NCBI GenBank assembly: GCA_028244835.1
Contig: JAOKBJ010000001.1
Span: forward strand, 62,001 to 126,000
Reading direction: 5' to 3'
Origin: Methylophilaceae bacterium
GTDB lineage: Bacteria > Pseudomonadota > Gammaproteobacteria > Burkholderiales > Methylophilaceae
DNA length: 64,000 bases
This document shows, piece by piece, positions 3,326-16,096 of the stretch (its first letter is position 1; every line of letters begins with the position of its first letter). The translations under genes were made by a program, and so were the position numbers. The notes beneath the pieces are model-generated. The model saw only the letters and a program-made list of their open reading frames with translations, did not search any database and was not told the origin of the DNA.

Positions 3326-3478
3326 ATGAAAATCAACTATATATTTTATTTACTGGCTATTTCTCTATTAGTAAGTAGCTGTGGTACAAAGGGTTCGCTT
3401 TATATTCCTGAAGATAAATATCCTCAAGCAAAGGTTAAGAATAATATTCTTATAAATCTTAAATCAGGAATAGGTTAA
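3326..3478 (+). CDS. small lipoprotein upstream of lysA (LptM/YifL-like)
   Basis: This 50-residue reading frame begins MKINYIFYLLAISLLVSSCG, a lipoprotein signal with the lipidated Cys at residue 19. The mature part starts GTKGSLYIPEDKYP. That GxKG(x)LY(x)P pattern just after the Cys matches the small YifL/LptM lipoproteins that lie directly upstream of lysA in many proteobacteria. In enterobacteria LptM assists assembly of the LPS translocon LptDE. There is a Shine-Dalgarno-like GAGGAAT about 8 bases before the ATG, and lysA starts 7 bases after the stop. Confidence 0.85.
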   Translation: MKINYIFYLLAISLLVSSCGTKGSLYIPEDKYPQAKVKNNILINLKSGIG

Positions 3479-3485
3479 ATCTAAA

Positions 3486-4736
3486 ATGACTGAAAATATT
3501 TTAGAATCAAAGGAAGAAAAATTTTATATTGAGAATGTTCTAGTTGAAAATATTGCTAAGAAATATGGCACACCTTCATACATCTACTCTAAGAAAATTA
3601 TTTTAGAAAATTACTTAAATTTTAAAAGTCAATTTAATGATATAGACCATCTCATTTGTTTTGCAGTTAAATCCAACCCAAACATAGCTATTTTAAATTT
3701 GCTAGCAAAGAATGGTGCTGGATTTGATATTGTATCTGGGGGCGAGCTTCAAAGAGTAATTGCTGCAAAAGCAGATCCAAAAAATGTTGTATTTTCTGGT
3801 GTTGGAAAATCTAAAGAAGATATTGAACTAGCTATCAAACATGACATCCTCACGTTTAATGTTGAATCAGAAGCAGAACTTTTTCGTATTCAAAGTATTG
3901 CAAAAAGATTAAGTAAGGTAGTTGGAATATCGATCCGAGTAAACCCGGATGTCGACCCTAAAACACATCCTTATATTTCAACTGGACTTAAAGATAATAA
4001 ATTTGGTATTGATGAACAGAATGCAATTTCAATGTATAAAATTGCCAATGCACTTGATTCAATTGAAATTAAAGGTATTGATTGTCATATAGGATCTCAA
4101 ATAACAGAATTGCGGCCTTTTGAAGATTCAATCAAAAAACTTCTTGTAATGATAGACCATCTCAAATCAATTGATATCTCAATTAAACATATTGATATTG
4201 GAGGCGGAATTGGTATTCAATACTCTGATGAAGTACCCCCAACTTTTTCTGATTACGCTAAAACTGTAAAAAATATTCTTAAGGGTCGTAATCTAAAAAT
4301 TATTTTTGAGCCAGGTCGAGCATTAATTGGTAAAGCTGGTATTTTAATAACAGAAGTAGAATATATAAAAAATAGTTCAGATAAAAATTTTATAATTATT
4401 AATGCAGCTATGAATGACCTGATGAGGCCTGCATTATATGGAGCTTTTCATGAAATTATAAATTTATCTTCATCTGACTCTGATCAAAAACACTATGATA
4501 TTGTTGGCCCCGTATGTGAAACAGGTGACTTTCTTGGTAAGGATCGTTTATTATCTGCTGAAGAAGGGAATATATTAGCTGTTTTGGATGCAGGGGCATA
4601 TGGAATGTCAATGAGCTCCAACTATAATTCTCGGCTAAAGGCATCAGAAATACTTGTAGATGGTGATAAATTATATCTAATTAGAAATCGTGATACTTTT
4701 GCTGACTTAATCAATGGTGAGCAACTACTACCCTAA
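3486..4736 (+). CDS. lysA: diaminopimelate decarboxylase
   Basis: This 416-residue PLP enzyme decarboxylates meso-diaminopimelate to L-lysine, the last step of lysine synthesis. The PLP-lysine motif FAVKSNPN lies near residue 60. Substrate and phosphate loops GSQITE and GGGIGI follow, and GPVCETGD supplies the catalytic Cys of the C-terminal beta domain. It is full length for the family. It follows the small lipoprotein directly, an arrangement common in proteobacteria. Confidence 0.97.
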   Translation: MTENILESKEEKFYIENVLVENIAKKYGTPSYIYSKKIILENYLNFKSQFNDIDHLICFAVKSNPNIAILNLLAKNGAGFDIVSGGELQRVIAAKADPKNVVFSGVGKSKEDIELAIKHDILTFNVESEAELFRIQSIAKRLSKVVGISIRVNPDVDPKTHPYISTGLKDNKFGIDEQNAISMYKIANALDSIEIKGIDCHIGSQITELRPFEDSIKKLLVMIDHLKSIDISIKHIDIGGGIGIQYSDEVPPTFSDYAKTVKNILKGRNLKIIFEPGRALIGKAGILITEVEYIKNSSDKNFIIINAAMNDLMRPALYGAFHEIINLSSSDSDQKHYDIVGPVCETGDFLGKDRLLSAEEGNILAVLDAGAYGMSMSSNYNSRLKASEILVDGDKLYLIRNRDTFADLINGEQLLP

Positions 4737-4743
4737 ATTAACT

Positions 4744-5688
4744 ATGCCAAATGAGATGATTAATATATCGTTAGCTAACCCCAGAGGTTTTTGTGCGGGA
4801 GTCGAAAGAGCAATCTTAATTGTAGAAAAAGCATTAGATAAGTATGGGGCTCCAGTATATGTGCATCATGAAGTTGTTCATAATAAATTTGTAATTAAGG
4901 AGCTCAAAGAAAAAGGTGTAATTTTTGTTGAAAGCTTAAAAGAAATCCCAAAATCAAGTCATGTTATCTTTAGTGCTCATGGTGTATCTAAAGCAATAGT
5001 AAAAGAATCTAAAAAATTTAATCTTATTTCAATAGATGCAACCTGTCCATTGGTAACTAAAGTGCATCGTGAAGTGAATAAATTAAGTAATAATGAATAT
5101 ACAATTATCATGATTGGGCACAAAGACCACCCGGAAGTAGAAGGAACAATGGGGCAAATTGAAAAAAGTTCTTTAAACAGCCAAATCTATTTAGTTGAAA
5201 ATATAGAAGATGTTAATAAATTAAAAGTTTCTAATCCTAATAAACTTAGCTATGTTAGCCAAACCACGCTATCTATTGATGATACCAAGAAAATAATTGA
5301 TGCATTAATAGTAAAATATCCATTAATTGTTGGGCCAAAAAGTAACGATATATGTTACGCAACACAAAATAGACAGGAAGCTGTTAAACAAATGTTTGGG
5401 CAACATGATCTTGTTTTTATTGTTGGGTCAAAAAATAGTTCAAATTCAAATAGACTTTTAGATATGGTCAAAAATAAAAGTATAGATGCTGTCCTTATAG
5501 ACGATATGTCACAATTTCAATCTAGATGGCTAAAAAATAAAAAAAATATAGGTATTACAGCTGGTGCTTCAGCCCCAGAAATTCTTGTTCAGAGCCTCAT
5601 CCAAGAAATTAAAAAAATTACAAAGGTATCTATTTCAGAAATAAAAGGCATTCAAGAAACTACTGTTTTCAAGCTTCCAAAAATTTGA
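4744..5688 (+). CDS. ispH: 4-hydroxy-3-methylbut-2-enyl diphosphate reductase
   Basis: This is the last enzyme of the MEP isoprenoid pathway, converting HMBPP to IPP and DMAPP with a 4Fe-4S cluster. Cluster cysteines are visible in NPRGFCAGVERA, DATCPLVTKVH and SNDICYATQNRQ. The VHHEVVHN and SAHGVS motifs supply substrate-binding histidines. I chose the ATG at 4744; an in-frame GTG at 4714 lies inside lysA and adds only non-conserved residues, and an ATG at 4756 is also possible. The 3' end overlaps the Nudix gene by 4 bases. Confidence 0.95.
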   Translation: MPNEMINISLANPRGFCAGVERAILIVEKALDKYGAPVYVHHEVVHNKFVIKELKEKGVIFVESLKEIPKSSHVIFSAHGVSKAIVKESKKFNLISIDATCPLVTKVHREVNKLSNNEYTIIMIGHKDHPEVEGTMGQIEKSSLNSQIYLVENIEDVNKLKVSNPNKLSYVSQTTLSIDDTKKIIDALIVKYPLIVGPKSNDICYATQNRQEAVKQMFGQHDLVFIVGSKNSSNSNRLLDMVKNKSIDAVLIDDMSQFQSRWLKNKKNIGITAGASAPEILVQSLIQEIKKITKVSISEIKGIQETTVFKLPKI

Positions 5689-10682: not shown

Positions 10683-11849
10683 TTAATCACTATTTTTAAT
10701 GTCTTTTGAATAAACCTTATCTTTTACTTTTTCTAATTCAGGATGGTATCGATTAGCAATTATAATTTCAGATTTGTTCATAAATTCATTTAAATTGTTA
10801 ATCATCGTTAGTCCCTCTAATTGTGTCTGACTAATTTGAGGTTCATAAATAATTATATCTACATTTTTTTCTTTTAATCTTTCTATAATTCCTAGGATTG
10901 CTGACTCTCTATAATTATCAGAATTACTTTTCATTATTAAGCGATAAATACCAATTACTTTAGCCTTAGTATTTATTATTTCGTCTACAAGAAACTCTTT
11001 TCTAGTTTCATTGCTATCAACAATAGCCTGCATAATATTATTTGGAATATCTTTATAATTTGCTAGTAATTGTTTTGTATCTTTGGGAAGACAGTATCCG
11101 CCGTAACCGAAAGATGGATTATTATAATAATCTCCTATTCTTGGATCCAAACTAACACCATCAATTATTTGCTTTGTGCTTAACTCATGCTTTGATGAAA
11201 AAGTATCTAATTCGTTAAAAAAAGTAACTCGCATTGCTAAATACATATTTGAGAACAGCTTTATTGCTTCAGCTTCAGTTGGATCTGTATATAAAATTGG
11301 TATATCTTTTTTTATTGCTCCTTGAACAAACAATTCCGCCAACTCCGGTCCTTTATTTTCTTTGTTGCTTATGATAATTCTTGAAGGATACAAACAATCA
11401 TATAAAGCCTGGCCTTCTCTTAAAAATTCTGGCGAAAAATTAATATGAGGTATATTAAATTTTAATCTTAAATTCGCCGTATACCCAACGGGGACTGTTG
11501 ATTTTATTAAAATTGGTACCTTATTATTTATTTCAATTATTTTATCTATTGATTCTTCAATTGACTTGGTATTAAAAAAGTTTGTAGCAGGGTCATAATC
11601 TGTAGGGGTAGCTATAATAACTAATTCAGCATCTTTATAAGCACTACTTTCATCCATAGTTGCATGAAGATCTAATTTAACTTTCTCCAAGTATTCGGTA
11701 ATATATGCATCTTGGAAAGGGGACTTTTTTTGGTTTATTAAGTCAACTTTGTCAGAAATGATATCAATTAAGGTAACGCTATGATTTTGTGCGAGCAGAA
11801 TTGCATTCGCTAAACCAACATAACCAATTCCTACAACTGTAATTTTCAA
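10683..11849 (-). CDS. ugd: UDP-glucose / nucleotide-sugar 6-dehydrogenase
   Basis: This 388-residue NAD-dependent enzyme oxidises UDP-glucose, or a similar nucleotide sugar, to the uronate. The N-terminal Rossmann motif is VVGIGYVGLANAILLA. The catalytic Cys lies in GYGGYCLPKDTKQL near residue 260, and SPEFLREGQALYD is the substrate-domain hallmark. Its length matches the short Ugd class found in enterobacteria. It supplies precursors for surface polysaccharide; no polysaccharide cluster is attached here. Confidence 0.9.
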   Translation of the reverse strand: MKITVVGIGYVGLANAILLAQNHSVTLIDIISDKVDLINQKKSPFQDAYITEYLEKVKLDLHATMDESSAYKDAELVIIATPTDYDPATNFFNTKSIEESIDKIIEINNKVPILIKSTVPVGYTANLRLKFNIPHINFSPEFLREGQALYDCLYPSRIIISNKENKGPELAELFVQGAIKKDIPILYTDPTEAEAIKLFSNMYLAMRVTFFNELDTFSSKHELSTKQIIDGVSLDPRIGDYYNNPSFGYGGYCLPKDTKQLLANYKDIPNNIMQAIVDSNETRKEFLVDEIINTKAKVIGIYRLIMKSNSDNYRESAILGIIERLKEKNVDIIIYEPQISQTQLEGLTMINNLNEFMNKSEIIIANRYHPELEKVKDKVYSKDIKNSD

Positions 11850-11876: not shown

Positions 11877-13619
11877 CTATTTTGTAAGTTGATACACACT
11901 TATATAATCTCCTTGCTTATACCCCATAATTTTATTTCCCCCAGCTACAACAGCAACGTATTGTGTATCATCAATCATATAAGTAATTGGTGGCGCATTC
12001 ACTCCTGCACCTATATTTGTTTGCCAAATTAATTCCCCAGTAACTGCATTAAAAGCATTGAAGTCCCCATTACCTTCACCTAGAAAAACTAAATTTCCTT
12101 TTGTAGCAAGAGAGCCCCCTAAAAGAGGTTGCTCTGTCGTATGTTGCCATTTAATTTTACCAGTTGATGCATTTATAGCTGTCAACAGTCCCCATTGAGG
12201 ATCATCAGAAGGTTCAGAGCTAGTATATTTAATTACTTTATTATTAGATTTTTTTTCATGCAGAGTATATTTAATCGGGGCATGAATACCAGAAACATAT
12301 ACTAGATGATGATCTAGGTTCATACTCACCGGTGACCAATTTGAGCCCCCAAGAATGCCCGGATAAATTATAGTTCCTTCAGGAGTTGCTTTAGCAAATA
12401 AATTATTTTGAGGGACAAATGCTTCTGATTTAACTAAAAGCTCACCATTATTTCTGTTGTGAATATAGAACCAGCCTGTTTTCCCTGCTTGACCAACAGC
12501 AGGTATTATCTTGCCATCCTTAATAGTATTAAATAATAAAGGCGGGCTAGCAACATCATATCCCCATGTATCATGGGGCACTTGCTGATAAAACCATTTT
12601 AGTTTACCTGTATCAGCATCTAAAGCCACCAATGAAACTGTATAAAGGTTATCGCCTGGCCTGGTTTCTGCACTCATCTGTGGAGAAGGGTTTCCAGTTC
12701 CAAAGAAAAGTGTATTTGTTATTTCATCAATAGCAGGTGTCGTCCATGCAGAACCTCCACCATATTTAGCAGAGTCTGGATATTGAGCTAGTGCTTTTTT
12801 TTCAAGATAGGTATCACGATTAAGCACTTCGCCATCACCAGTATAATTTGTAAATTTGCCCTCCCATCCTTGCTTGGGAATTGTATCAAATTGCCATACT
12901 TGCCTACCGGAATGAACATCATAAGCCGCTAAGAACCCAGGCCTTCCAAACCTTCCAGCGACTCCAACCACCGCGCCTAATGGTGAGTTGCTACCCTGTT
13001 CTTCTATATGAAGACCATAGCCAACACCTGTAATCCCAATGATTACTTTATTTTTATAAATAACAGGCGCCATAGAAATACCAACGCCAGTTCCACCACT
13101 TATAACTTTATCTCGATTTAGATCAAATTCACTTAGCGAGTTTAAAGACTCTGTCTCTACTACATTCTCTACTACATTAATATCCCAAATTTTTTCGCCA
13201 GTTTTAATATCAAGTGAAATTAGTCTTGCATCAACAGTCCCAAAAAAAATTTGCTCACCATGGACTGCAACCCCACGGTTCGTTGGCCCACAACACATTT
13301 TCCAGTTAGGGTTTCTATCGTGTTCATAACGCCACAACTCTTTACCTGTCTTTCCATCCAAAGCAATTACATGATTAAAAGGCAAAGATACATACATAAC
13401 TCCTTTATGGACAATAGGAGTAGCTTGAAAAGTTGCACTAATTCCTGTTTGATATTGCCAACCTAATTCCAAATTTTTAACATTTTTAATATTAATTTGG
13501 TTTAAATTTGAAAATCGCTGATTGGTAAGATCTTTGCCATAAGAACTCCAATCATCGTTTTCTTTTTGGCAAGCAGTTAAAAAAAACAAACTCAAGAAAG
13601 TGATTAATAAAATTTTCAT
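11877..13619 (-). CDS. PQQ-type quinoprotein dehydrogenase, lipoprotein, atypical active site
   Basis: This 580-residue beta-propeller protein belongs to the methanol/ethanol quinoprotein family. It starts with a lipoprotein signal (LFFLTACQKE, Cys17), so it is membrane-tethered. It keeps the vicinal disulfide (Cys109-Cys110), repeated propeller tags such as AAYDVHSGRQVWQF, and FFGTGNPSP with the metal-ligand Asn310. By eye, the Glu of GAE(L/F)G is Gly200, and the catalytic Asp of HDxWD is Gly353 in HDTWGYD, with Asp355 two residues on. About 25 extra residues follow Gly200. It is clearly a quinoprotein; whether it binds PQQ, which metal it uses and its substrate are open, and it should not be labelled MxaF or XoxF. 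Confidence 0.8.
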   Translation of the reverse strand: MKILLITFLSLFFLTACQKENDDWSSYGKDLTNQRFSNLNQINIKNVKNLELGWQYQTGISATFQATPIVHKGVMYVSLPFNHVIALDGKTGKELWRYEHDRNPNWKMCCGPTNRGVAVHGEQIFFGTVDARLISLDIKTGEKIWDINVVENVVETESLNSLSEFDLNRDKVISGGTGVGISMAPVIYKNKVIIGITGVGYGLHIEEQGSNSPLGAVVGVAGRFGRPGFLAAYDVHSGRQVWQFDTIPKQGWEGKFTNYTGDGEVLNRDTYLEKKALAQYPDSAKYGGGSAWTTPAIDEITNTLFFGTGNPSPQMSAETRPGDNLYTVSLVALDADTGKLKWFYQQVPHDTWGYDVASPPLLFNTIKDGKIIPAVGQAGKTGWFYIHNRNNGELLVKSEAFVPQNNLFAKATPEGTIIYPGILGGSNWSPVSMNLDHHLVYVSGIHAPIKYTLHEKKSNNKVIKYTSSEPSDDPQWGLLTAINASTGKIKWQHTTEQPLLGGSLATKGNLVFLGEGNGDFNAFNAVTGELIWQTNIGAGVNAPPITYMIDDTQYVAVVAGGNKIMGYKQGDYISVYQLTK

Positions 13620-14510: not shown

Positions 14511-15113
14511 TTACTTACTAAACCACATTCTTCGTAGTGTTCCATCCTTGTCTAAGAAAGAATGTTTCAGAGCTCCAATAATATGAAAAAGTAAGACACA
14601 TAAAATTAATAGTCCAAAAATTTGATGAAATTCAAGAAATAACTCTCGTAAACCAGAATCGTCGATACCAGGAACAACTTTAATACCAAACCATTTAATC
14701 CCATATTTACTACCGATGGACATAATAATCCCTGATAAAGGGATTAAAAACATAAGCAAATAAAGTCCATGATGAACGATGGTAGCTAATCTTTTTTCCC
14801 AGGATTTCATTGTTTCAAGTAATGCCGGTGGGCGATGCGTGAATCGCCAAATAATTCTAAAAATTATAAGGACAAATATTGTAAGCCCAATAGACTTATG
14901 AAGATTAAAATAGAAAGCTCTTGGTGTGGCTTCTTTGTTTAACTCCCAAGTATATAAACCTAAATCAAATAAGTCATAGCTTAAAGCTTTTGCACCCTCT
15001 TTAGGTAAAGCTTCCATAAACCATCCAAGATAGAACATAAAGAAAATGCCAATAGCAATGAGCCAATGTAAAACTATTGCAACATTAGTATATTTTTTTG
15101 TAGAACTGCTCAT
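14511..15113 (-). CDS. cytochrome b561 family protein
   Basis: This four-helix membrane cytochrome has histidines placed for two b hemes: IVLHWLIAIG in helix 1, NLHKSIGL in helix 2, VHHGLYLLMF in helix 3 and HQIFGLLILCVLLFHIIGALKH in helix 4. I start it at the ATG at 15113 (MSSSTKKYTNVA); an upstream ATG at 15149 adds 12 non-conserved residues. Members pass electrons between quinol and periplasmic acceptors or superoxide. It lies next to the quinoprotein gene and the periplasmic metallohydrolase, which hints at a shared redox function. Confidence 0.88.
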   Translation of the reverse strand: MSSSTKKYTNVAIVLHWLIAIGIFFMFYLGWFMEALPKEGAKALSYDLFDLGLYTWELNKEATPRAFYFNLHKSIGLTIFVLIIFRIIWRFTHRPPALLETMKSWEKRLATIVHHGLYLLMFLIPLSGIIMSIGSKYGIKWFGIKVVPGIDDSGLRELFLEFHQIFGLLILCVLLFHIIGALKHSFLDKDGTLRRMWFSK

Positions 15114-15166
15114 AATTAAAATAGGGTAAAATAAAGATAATGTAATCATAGCGCCAATTTAACAAA

Positions 15167-16096
15167 ATGAAAAAAAAACTAACTCTTTTTCTCTTTTTTT
15201 TATATTTTGCAGCACAAAATACCATAGCAAGCTCTTCTCATGTAGATATTGTTGAAGTAGCGCCAGGAATATTTGTTCATCAAGGAAAACATTTTGATGT
15301 TGATGAAAGCTATCAAGGGGATATTGGTAATATTGGTTTCATTATTGGTAAACATAGCGTTGCAGTTATTGATACTGGAGGAACTTTAGCGATAGGTAAA
15401 TCACTCAAAGCAAGTATTCGAGAAAAGACATCCTTACCGATTAAATATGTAATTAATACCCATGTTCATCTTGATCATATATATGGAAATGCAGCATTTA
15501 ATGATAAAAATACCAAATTCATAGGCCACAGTAAACTTCCAGAAGCCATGCAATTTAGAAAAGAATTTTATGAAGAATTAAATCTTAAATATTTAAATAT
15601 CCCAGTTGAAAAAACTATCCAAATTCCACCTTCAATTTTAATTAAGACTAATAAAAGTATGATTTTAGATTTAGGTGAAAGAAAAATAAAAATAAGTGCC
15701 TACTCTACTGCTCATACAAATAATGATATTACTATTGAAGATTTATCAACTGGAACCTTTTGGGCTGGTGATTTATTATTTATTGAGCGAACCCCCGTAG
15801 TTGACGGAGATATAAATGGCTTTATGGATATTCTTGACCAATTTATGTCACTAAACATTAAGCTTGTGATACCAGGGCACGGAACGCCAACAAAGAACTG
15901 GAAAGCGGCTTTTAAGAAACATAAAAATTATTTTGTAGTCTTGAGGGACGGAATAAGACGAGCAATTGAAGAAGATTTAGGCCTTCAAGAAGCCATAGAA
16001 ACCGTAGCTCAGTCCGAAGCAGGAAAGTGGGAATTATTTGATATTCAAAATGCTAGAAATATAAATCAAATATACCCACAGCTAGAATGGGAATAA
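15167..16096 (+). CDS. periplasmic metallo-beta-lactamase-fold hydrolase (quinoprotein relay type)
   Basis: This 309-residue protein has an N-terminal signal peptide (about residues 1-21, LYFAAQNTIASS). The zinc motif NTHVHLDHIYGN (HxHxDH) lies near residue 103, with later ligands in STAHTNND, WAGDLLF and PGHGTP. It resembles the zinc metallohydrolases annotated near quinoprotein and PQQ genes (quinoprotein relay system). The reaction is unknown. It is divergent from the cytochrome b561 gene, with a 53-base gap that must hold both promoters. Confidence 0.83.
   Translation: MKKKLTLFLFFLYFAAQNTIASSSHVDIVEVAPGIFVHQGKHFDVDESYQGDIGNIGFIIGKHSVAVIDTGGTLAIGKSLKASIREKTSLPIKYVINTHVHLDHIYGNAAFNDKNTKFIGHSKLPEAMQFRKEFYEELNLKYLNIPVEKTIQIPPSILIKTNKSMILDLGERKIKISAYSTAHTNNDITIEDLSTGTFWAGDLLFIERTPVVDGDINGFMDILDQFMSLNIKLVIPGHGTPTKNWKAAFKKHKNYFVVLRDGIRRAIEEDLGLQEAIETVAQSEAGKWELFDIQNARNINQIYPQLEWE

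Follow-up and report, generated by a model that had tools for sequence, protein, structure and literature searches.

Quinoprotein-like gene in a Methylophilaceae genome

A stretch of 64,000 nucleotides from a Methylophilaceae bacterium (assembly GCA_028244835.1, contig JAOKBJ010000001.1, positions 62,001 to 126,000 of the forward strand; hereafter the window) carries a gene whose product resembles the methanol and ethanol dehydrogenases that depend on pyrroloquinoline quinone (PQQ) and lacks two of their active-site acids. The host genome (G000) comprises 1.08 Mb in 15 contigs and is 81% complete. The gene and its N-terminal feature lie at the following window positions:

11877..13619, minus strand: quinoprotein-like gene, 580 amino acids, of a subfamily without the catalytic Asp and the metal-ligand Glu (open reading frame [ORF], family searches, orthologs, and substitution ratios)
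13569..13619, minus strand: lipoprotein signal peptide with lipobox Cys, residues 1 to 17 (LTAC, i.e., L14-T15-A16-C17; read from the translation, variable among orthologs)

The window protein scored 317.3 bits on the PQQ propeller superfamily PF01011 (gathering cutoff, 26.7 bits) and 424.3 bits on TIGR03075, the methanol/ethanol family of PQQ-dependent dehydrogenases, which is below the cutoff of 480.05 bits. Six further members of its clade, scored singly, likewise fell short (412.7 to 438.5 bits), and the best E value among all 53 members of an ortholog set described below (1.8e-136) was weaker than the 1.1e-144 that corresponds to 483 bits. An earlier note on this DNA had called the protein plainly a member of that family, which was too strong, although the cutoff is a soft test, given that a relative keeping both acids (L055) also misses it with 476.4 bits. 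The XoxF-type protein of the same genome (P0002 on contig C11; best solved match, the XoxF structure 6dam, at 675 bits) reached 603 bits on TIGR03075, compared with 424 for the window protein. The lipid anchor proposed in the same note fits the window protein but is not clade-wide; the lipobox pattern was found in 37 of 80 N termini, an approximate figure with some false hits and a few nonorthologous or truncated ORFs among them, and it is the Methylophilaceae members, rather than the clade as a whole, that usually have the anchor.

Replacement of the catalytic Asp and the metal-ligand Glu

Residues were compared in two ortholog sets. The first, with 43 rows including the window protein, was drawn by whole-protein similarity, blind to the motif, with the line at 590 bits; L070_3461 (474 bits) was therefore counted among the 29 other rows, though the tree described below puts it in the clade. 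The second, A2, has 53 rows including the window protein, and its loci were picked by the motif RPGDNLYT or PHDxWGYD; out of at least 594, the 80 ranking highest by similarity to a Methylophilaceae-led alignment were kept, a list that is thus biased. The sites concerned are as follows (MDH, methanol dehydrogenase):

12555..12575, minus strand: HDTWGYD motif, residues 349 to 355, with Gly353 in place of the catalytic Asp and Asp355 kept (alignments and ortholog counts)
13020..13022, minus strand: Gly200, spacing equivalent of the metal-ligand Glu (43/43 and 53/53 orthologs; weak profile match to PedH and 1kb0)
12951..12953, minus strand: Arg223, opposite the metal-ligand Glu in the automatic alignment, variable (HMMER, MAFFT, and ortholog counts)
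13425..13427, minus strand: Gln65, at the place of MDH Glu55 (Gln in 43/43 orthologs)

HMMER paired Gly353 (PHDTWGYD) with the Asp of PNDAWDFS in the ExaA structure 1flg, Asp316 by count along the alignment, which we take to be the catalytic residue and the counterpart of MDH Asp303. The placement was concordant across phmmer, MAFFT, hhalign, and hmmsearch, with the flanking HDxW and D in register, confirming the Gly that the earlier note had seen at this position. Gly occupied position 353 in all 43 orthologs of the motif-blind set, while 28 of the 29 other rows carried Asp, the lone exception being L070_3461 with Gly. A2 had 51 Gly and 2 Asn, which weighs less for this position because its loci were partly selected on the motif; among 12 new distinct rows from profile searches (repeats of L130 and L157, namely, L188 and L192, not counted), there were 10 Gly, 2 Asn, and no Asp. 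The clade motif is thus G-x-D, rarely N-x-D, rather than the D-x-D of XoxF, which shares with the window protein the fold and the Asp at the +2 "lanthanide" position and differs from it further in having the Glu. This Asp, Asp355, which the earlier note had seen to be retained in the window protein and had linked to lanthanide use, was kept in 43/43 and 53/53 orthologs; because 27 of the 29 other rows also carry it, it looks ancestral and says little on lanthanides.

The place of the metal-ligand Glu, presumably that of MDH Glu177, depends on where the gap is set. HMMER and MAFFT put Arg223 (GRFGRPG) opposite ExaA Glu179, whereas a profile of the 53 orthologs gave a weak separate match (7 to 10 bits) that brings the Glu of PedH (GGEFGV) or 1kb0 (GGAEYGV) onto Gly200 of ITGVGYGL with unchanged spacing. 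Both placements are defensible because an extra segment sits between them, and the window protein has no Glu at either. Position 200 is invariant, while position 223 varies and is Glu in 3/43 and 2/53 orthologs, compared with 24 of the 29 other rows; Gly200, to which the earlier note had assigned the Glu by eye, appears to be the better structural candidate on these counts and on spacing, although the automatic alignment favors Arg223. Gln at residue 65 is common elsewhere, with 17 Glu, 10 Gln, 1 Asn, and 1 Leu in the 29 other rows; both PedH structures compared (6zcv and 6zcw) have Gln there and ExaA has Glu. That the protein is an ordinary Ca- or Ln-dependent alcohol dehydrogenase with a misread alignment is therefore highly improbable: such an enzyme would account for the retention of Asn310, Asp355, and the whole fold, but it is refuted as to residues by the agreement of the four methods on Gly353 and by the rarity of Glu at both candidate places.

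Two inserts and candidate active-site residues

Two segments of the window protein interrupt its alignment with known enzymes, and the second bears two residues of interest:

13089..13163, minus strand: insert 1, about residues 153 to 177, absent from the compared paralogs, limits approximate (profile-profile gaps)
12954..13025, minus strand: insert 2, residues 199 to 222 (about 23 residues), an extra beta hairpin with strands 203 to 206 and 216 to 219 (alignments and predicted structure)
13008..13010, minus strand: His204 in insert 2, candidate for a new role in catalysis or at the metal site (43/43 and 51/53 orthologs)
13002..13004, minus strand: Glu206 in insert 2, candidate new metal ligand (Asp or Glu in 42/43 and 50/53 orthologs)

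The earlier note had reported about 25 extra residues after Gly200, which agrees with insert 2; insert 1 and the Gln at the Glu55 place had escaped it. Insert 2 begins in the loop where known enzymes carry their metal Glu, and in the AlphaFold2 model built on A2, its hairpin directly follows the strand of residues 191 to 197; it is from this place of the insert that we infer a position of His204 and residue 206 near the PQQ site. His204 is replaced by Thr in L157, L161, L190, and L191 and by Phe in L177 and L070_3461. In the four Thr-bearing rows, a Methylomirabilis-type branch, Thr204, Arg206, Asn353, and Asp427 occur together in place of His204, an acidic residue 206, Gly353, and Asn427, a joint change hinting that the four residues may share one pocket.

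Residues 190 to 199 and 214 to 223 are alike (consensus sequences GKVIVGITGV and LGAVVGVAGR; rank 17 of 15,196 local pairs), so a tandem duplication was considered as the source of the insert. The likeness is no more than suggestive, since the neighboring pair 171/191 has a higher score and repetition is in any case a feature of propeller blades, and this origin was not retained. L177 itself (G354:C35:513-2195) is a second, divergent copy in its genome that keeps Gly200 and WGYD, has Phe204, and is missing the GRFG-like end of its insert.

Predicted fold and PQQ pocket

The residues that would hold PQQ and the remaining metal ligand were located as follows:

13290..13295, minus strand: vicinal pair Cys109-Cys110 (43/43 and 53/53 orthologs)
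12744..12746, minus strand: Trp292, equivalent of MDH Trp243 (43/43 and 50/53 orthologs)
12690..12692, minus strand: Asn310, equivalent of the metal-ligand Asn261 of MDH and Asn266 of ExaA (43/43 and 53/53 orthologs; alignment to 1flg)
12480..12482, minus strand: Lys380, equivalent of Arg/Lys331 of MDH (43/43 and 53/53 orthologs)

We take the vicinal Cys pair to stack on PQQ as in known enzymes, Trp243 of MDH to be the PQQ-stacking Trp, Arg/Lys331 to contact PQQ, and Asn261 to be a metal ligand, with the ExaA number counted along the alignment. Arg115 is invariant as well (43/43). AlphaFold2 predicted an eight-bladed, PQQ-dehydrogenase-like propeller (mean predicted local distance difference test score [pLDDT], 89.4; predicted template modeling score, 0.90), so that fold and residues, with the Cys-Cys pair and the stacking Trp, are of the TIGR03075 type. 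Among solved structures, the best fold matches were PedH, quinohemoprotein alcohol dehydrogenases, and XoxF (Z scores of 41.7 to 42.5, root mean square deviations [rmsd] of 1.9 to 2.2, and 480 to 487 residues), with PedH reaching a Z score of 42.5 and with 480 residues superposed on 6zcw at an rmsd of 1.9. PedH and ExaA (6zcv, 6zcw, and 1flg; Z scores of 40.6 to 42.5; 34 to 36% identity over the structural alignment) share with the window protein the Cys-Cys pair, the Arg, the Trp, and the Asn metal ligand, and differ from it in having the catalytic Asp and the metal Glu and in lacking the two extra segments.

This pocket bears on the possibility that the protein is an empty propeller, a structural protein like BamB or the acido-empty-quinoproteins that has lost PQQ binding. 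There is precedent for such proteins by name in TIGR04528 (acido-empty-quinoprotein group A), a family of the same fold with doubtful cofactor binding by its name, on which the window protein scored 334.6 bits, and the structure search found the fold to be common to BamB as well. The TIGR04528 score, however, is far below that family's own cutoff of 650 bits and below the TIGR03075 score, the BamB score (TIGR03300) is 102 bits against a cutoff of 285.2, and the residues of the PQQ sandwich and those binding its carboxylates are invariant or nearly so.

A conserved clade under purifying selection

In a maximum-likelihood tree of 89 rows, inferred by a quick method with the Shimodaira-Hasegawa approximate likelihood ratio test as its sole support measure, 60 orthologs and L070_3461, a long branch, formed one group of 61 with a support of 99. 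Gly200 and Gly353 are clade-wide, a point that the earlier note had proposed to check by a tree, and its suggestion of a new subfamily is borne out by this supported clade, by the clade-wide residues, and by purifying selection. The neighboring group, with a support of 88 for the sister relation, consists of proteins from Burkholderiales (L055 to L057 and L079 to L081) that are about 42 to 47% identical to the window protein over the aligned parts and have several motifs in common with it, but they keep the Glu and both Asp (TNGGEYG and HDVWDLD) and lack both inserts. We know of no characterized member of this sister clade. All six of its rows, together with the look-alikes L173, L176, and L178, have Glu where the PQQ-contacting Asn394 would stand (GGVEWxP), and they retain the metal Glu as well as the catalytic Asp.

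The ratio of nonsynonymous to synonymous substitution rates between the window gene and five relatives was 0.07 to 0.09, the two most distant being near saturation at silent sites. The gene was present in 9 of the 14 genomes of its streamlined genus that are at least 90% complete and in 26 of 30 genomes in the rest of the family sample, counting two split copies (G029:C1:378642-380251 and G059:C1:73925-75656) in which it appears as two adjacent matches, owing to a frameshift or a sequencing error. Strong purifying selection thus maintains the gene where it occurs, yet it is dispensable. Named members among the best 80 of at least 594 loci came from Methylophilaceae, Methylophaga, Zoogloea, Hyphomicrobium, Methylopila, Hansschlegelia, Neptuniibacter, Panacagrimonas, Thiotrichaceae, and Methylomirabilis, along with single metagenome-assembled genomes (MAGs) labeled Rokuibacteriota and Gemmatimonadetes; the clade includes alpha-, beta-, and gammaproteobacteria as well as Methylomirabilis and other groups. 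One record labeled as a Klebsiella pneumoniae MAG (L156) probably belongs to the window's own order and bears a wrong species label. The clade is genuine and conserved and seems to be an undescribed variant of the PQQ dehydrogenases; among the listed titles and abstract openings of the open-access literature, which offer weak evidence of novelty, no description of this subfamily was found.

Departures of other kinds were seen among paralogs. Locus L070 (G083:C21:25001-45000) holds four PQQ-dehydrogenase-like genes within 20 kb, including the divergent clade member (3461-5629), which lacks His204 and the PQQ-stacking Trp position (GGGSIIASP). One paralog group (L051, 10108-12078 and 2032-3756; L070, 14978-16741) keeps the catalytic Asp and has Gly at the metal-Glu column and no vicinal Cys pair, which, judged by these residues, would be a different departure from the textbook site.

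Co-occurrence with PQQ synthesis and the question of methylotrophy

The host genome carries pqqE (contig C12). From the best-80 list, 47 loci were taken, and pqqE was found over the cutoff in 42 of the 46 carrier genomes tested. In a class sample of 275 genomes besides the host, 11 genomes matched the window protein at 1e-120; G155, G204, G336, and G412, with weaker matches, were excluded from the carriers, since the Glu and Asp are present and the insert is absent in their proteins. All 7 remaining carriers had pqqE, compared with 41 of the 275 genomes overall (hypergeometric P = 1e-6), as did all 4 of the weaker-match genomes; scoring covered the top 4 candidates of each genome, and some carriers may therefore have been missed. 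In the order sample, pqqE was over the cutoff in 5 of 6 carriers, with the sixth having it split over two contigs, and in 3 of 34 noncarriers. Members of TIGR04528 would presumably be expected in genomes without PQQ synthesis, judging from the name and idea of that family, and the clade in contrast accompanies PQQ synthesis and keeps the pocket. The intact pocket and this tight co-occurrence, even with the inflation by ancestry considered below, make an empty propeller improbable, and the window protein is probably a PQQ protein.

A PQQ-dependent formaldehyde or aldehyde dehydrogenase of methylotrophs, comparable to the dye-linked formaldehyde dehydrogenase reported from Hyphomicrobium zavarzinii, would be a special case of the redox enzyme that we favor. 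Many of the named carriers (Methylophilaceae, Methylophaga, Hyphomicrobium, Methylopila, Hansschlegelia, and Methylomirabilis) belong to groups known for methylotrophy, and in Methylophaga loci L121 and L127, a molybdopterin protein whose domains are typical of formate dehydrogenase is encoded nearby (Pfam on L121; in L127, ORFs matching those of L121 in size and order, with an ATP-binding cassette ATPase also nearby). According to a review (PMC8879981), PQQ is the most common cofactor of the dye-linked formaldehyde dehydrogenases from H. zavarzinii and Methylococcus, while another paper (PMC5784242) states that the Methylococcus protein was identified as a sulfide/quinone reductase or flavin adenine dinucleotide-dependent oxidoreductase. 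The many methylotrophs in the best-80 list are explained by its Methylophilaceae-led query, however, and the carriers also include Zoogloea, Panacagrimonas, and Thiotrichaceae. XoxF was found in at least 21 of the 46 carrier genomes, a lower bound given that the 1e-120 threshold is harsh on split alignments, and it was not enriched among the carriers of the class sample (3/7, versus 18/34 other PQQ makers). Since XoxF presence fails to separate carriers from other PQQ makers, a link to methylotrophy was not adopted, and we hold this specialized function to be improbable.

Gene neighborhood

In the window, the gene is accompanied by genes for a radical S-adenosylmethionine protein, cytochrome b561, the metallohydrolase TIGR04559, DoxX, and ActP, whose relatives accompany the quinoprotein mainly within the genus and its near relatives. 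Cytochrome b561 (14511-15149) and the "quinoprotein relay system zinc metallohydrolase 2" (15167-16096; TIGR04559, over the cutoff) form a divergent pair, found in 29 and 28 of 31 genus genomes, respectively, with or without the quinoprotein. The pair was rejected as a dedicated partner because it also occurs in complete genus genomes without the quinoprotein (G001, G003, G006, and G016). A different b561-family gene adjoins the quinoprotein in L068, and the metallohydrolase family occurs near it in Limnobacter (L120) and Panacagrimonas (L140 and L143; Pfam on L120 and L143). The next gene downstream in the window (10683-11849) appears by eye to encode a UDP-sugar dehydrogenase and, according to the ORF list, starts at TTG; it also adjoins the quinoprotein in L083 and was not found in the compared flanks of L011, L017, L019, L025, and L076, which are short except for L076. 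Pfam searches with 40 neighbor proteins from 28 loci, together with the ORF comparisons, revealed no theme shared among the loci, and neighborhoods differed from lineage to lineage; for the other orthologs, any comparison of flanks was by BLAST. In the betaproteobacterial loci L111, L113, and L116, a gene for about 700 to 730 amino acids lies immediately upstream in the same orientation; by Pfam, it encodes a TonB-dependent receptor in L111 and L116, and it adjoins genes that cluster with a HisKA_3/LuxR two-component pair.

These observations bear on the main rival of a redox enzyme, namely, a periplasmic PQQ binder that is not a dehydrogenase (a reservoir, carrier, sensor, or quinoprotein partner, with or without metal), in which the loss of the acids would be a loss of catalysis. 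The upstream gene of the three betaproteobacterial loci would fit cofactor traffic. The lipid anchor of the window protein and the co-occurrence with pqqE also speak for such a binder, and both classical acids are gone clade-wide while the PQQ-holding residues are kept. Nevertheless, no conserved partner gene was present in the flanks examined, and the near-invariant His204, the acidic residue 206, and the hairpin in the active-site loop look like gain rather than decay. We regard such a binder as rather unlikely.

Proposed mechanism and implications

The reading that we favor, which we give an even chance, is that the protein is a periplasmic PQQ-binding propeller of a distinct subfamily, a redox enzyme that uses PQQ in a rebuilt active site. 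The catalytic Asp and the bidentate Glu ligand of the classical enzymes would have been lost, with the Glu-bearing blade rebuilt by the two inserts. PQQ would be held as in known enzymes, between Cys109-Cys110 on one face and Trp292 on the other, with Arg115 and Lys380 at its edges; the metal site would keep Asn310 and Asp355 and probably recruit the acidic residue 206 from the insert. The role of the base may have passed to His204 from the insert or to Asp355; a His base is used by the PQQ-dependent soluble glucose dehydrogenase. The putative substrate would be a small alcohol, an aldehyde hydrate, or a similar compound, with electrons passed to the respiratory chain and, in this lineage, the protein presumably anchored to lipid.

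Several observations weigh against this reading. His204 is Phe in the divergent L177 (in G354) and in L070_3461, both of which keep Gly353; the joint change of residues 204, 206, 353, and 427 is limited to one lineage and perhaps to one event; and the pLDDT in insert 2 is only 76 to 80. As for the cofactor, 4 of the 46 carriers lacked pqqE over the cutoff (G111, G136, G140, and G145, all behind MAG records), its co-occurrence is inflated by ancestry and not independent of it, and the presence of pqqE would be explained by the other PQQ enzymes that many carriers have. The earlier note had left the choice between a rebuilt active site and a noncatalytic role; the pocket and PQQ synthesis argue against an empty or decayed protein, and the rebuilt site is the likelier of the two, at about even odds. 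More tentatively, the clade may embody a second catalytic design for propeller PQQ enzymes, in which, once the general-base Asp and the bidentate Glu had been lost, a hairpin in the metal-ligand loop supplied a His as base and another acidic ligand for a different chemistry, conserved from alphaproteobacteria to Methylomirabilis.

In a recent ocean survey (PMC11996626), the metal use of PQQ dehydrogenases is assigned from a D-x-A/S/T or a D-x-D motif, a scheme under which the present clade, with G-x-D or rarely N-x-D, would stay unassigned. If the protein turns over, it would show a PQQ enzyme working without the textbook base; if there is no turnover, it would be a conserved PQQ-binding protein of a kind not met in the open-access literature listings.

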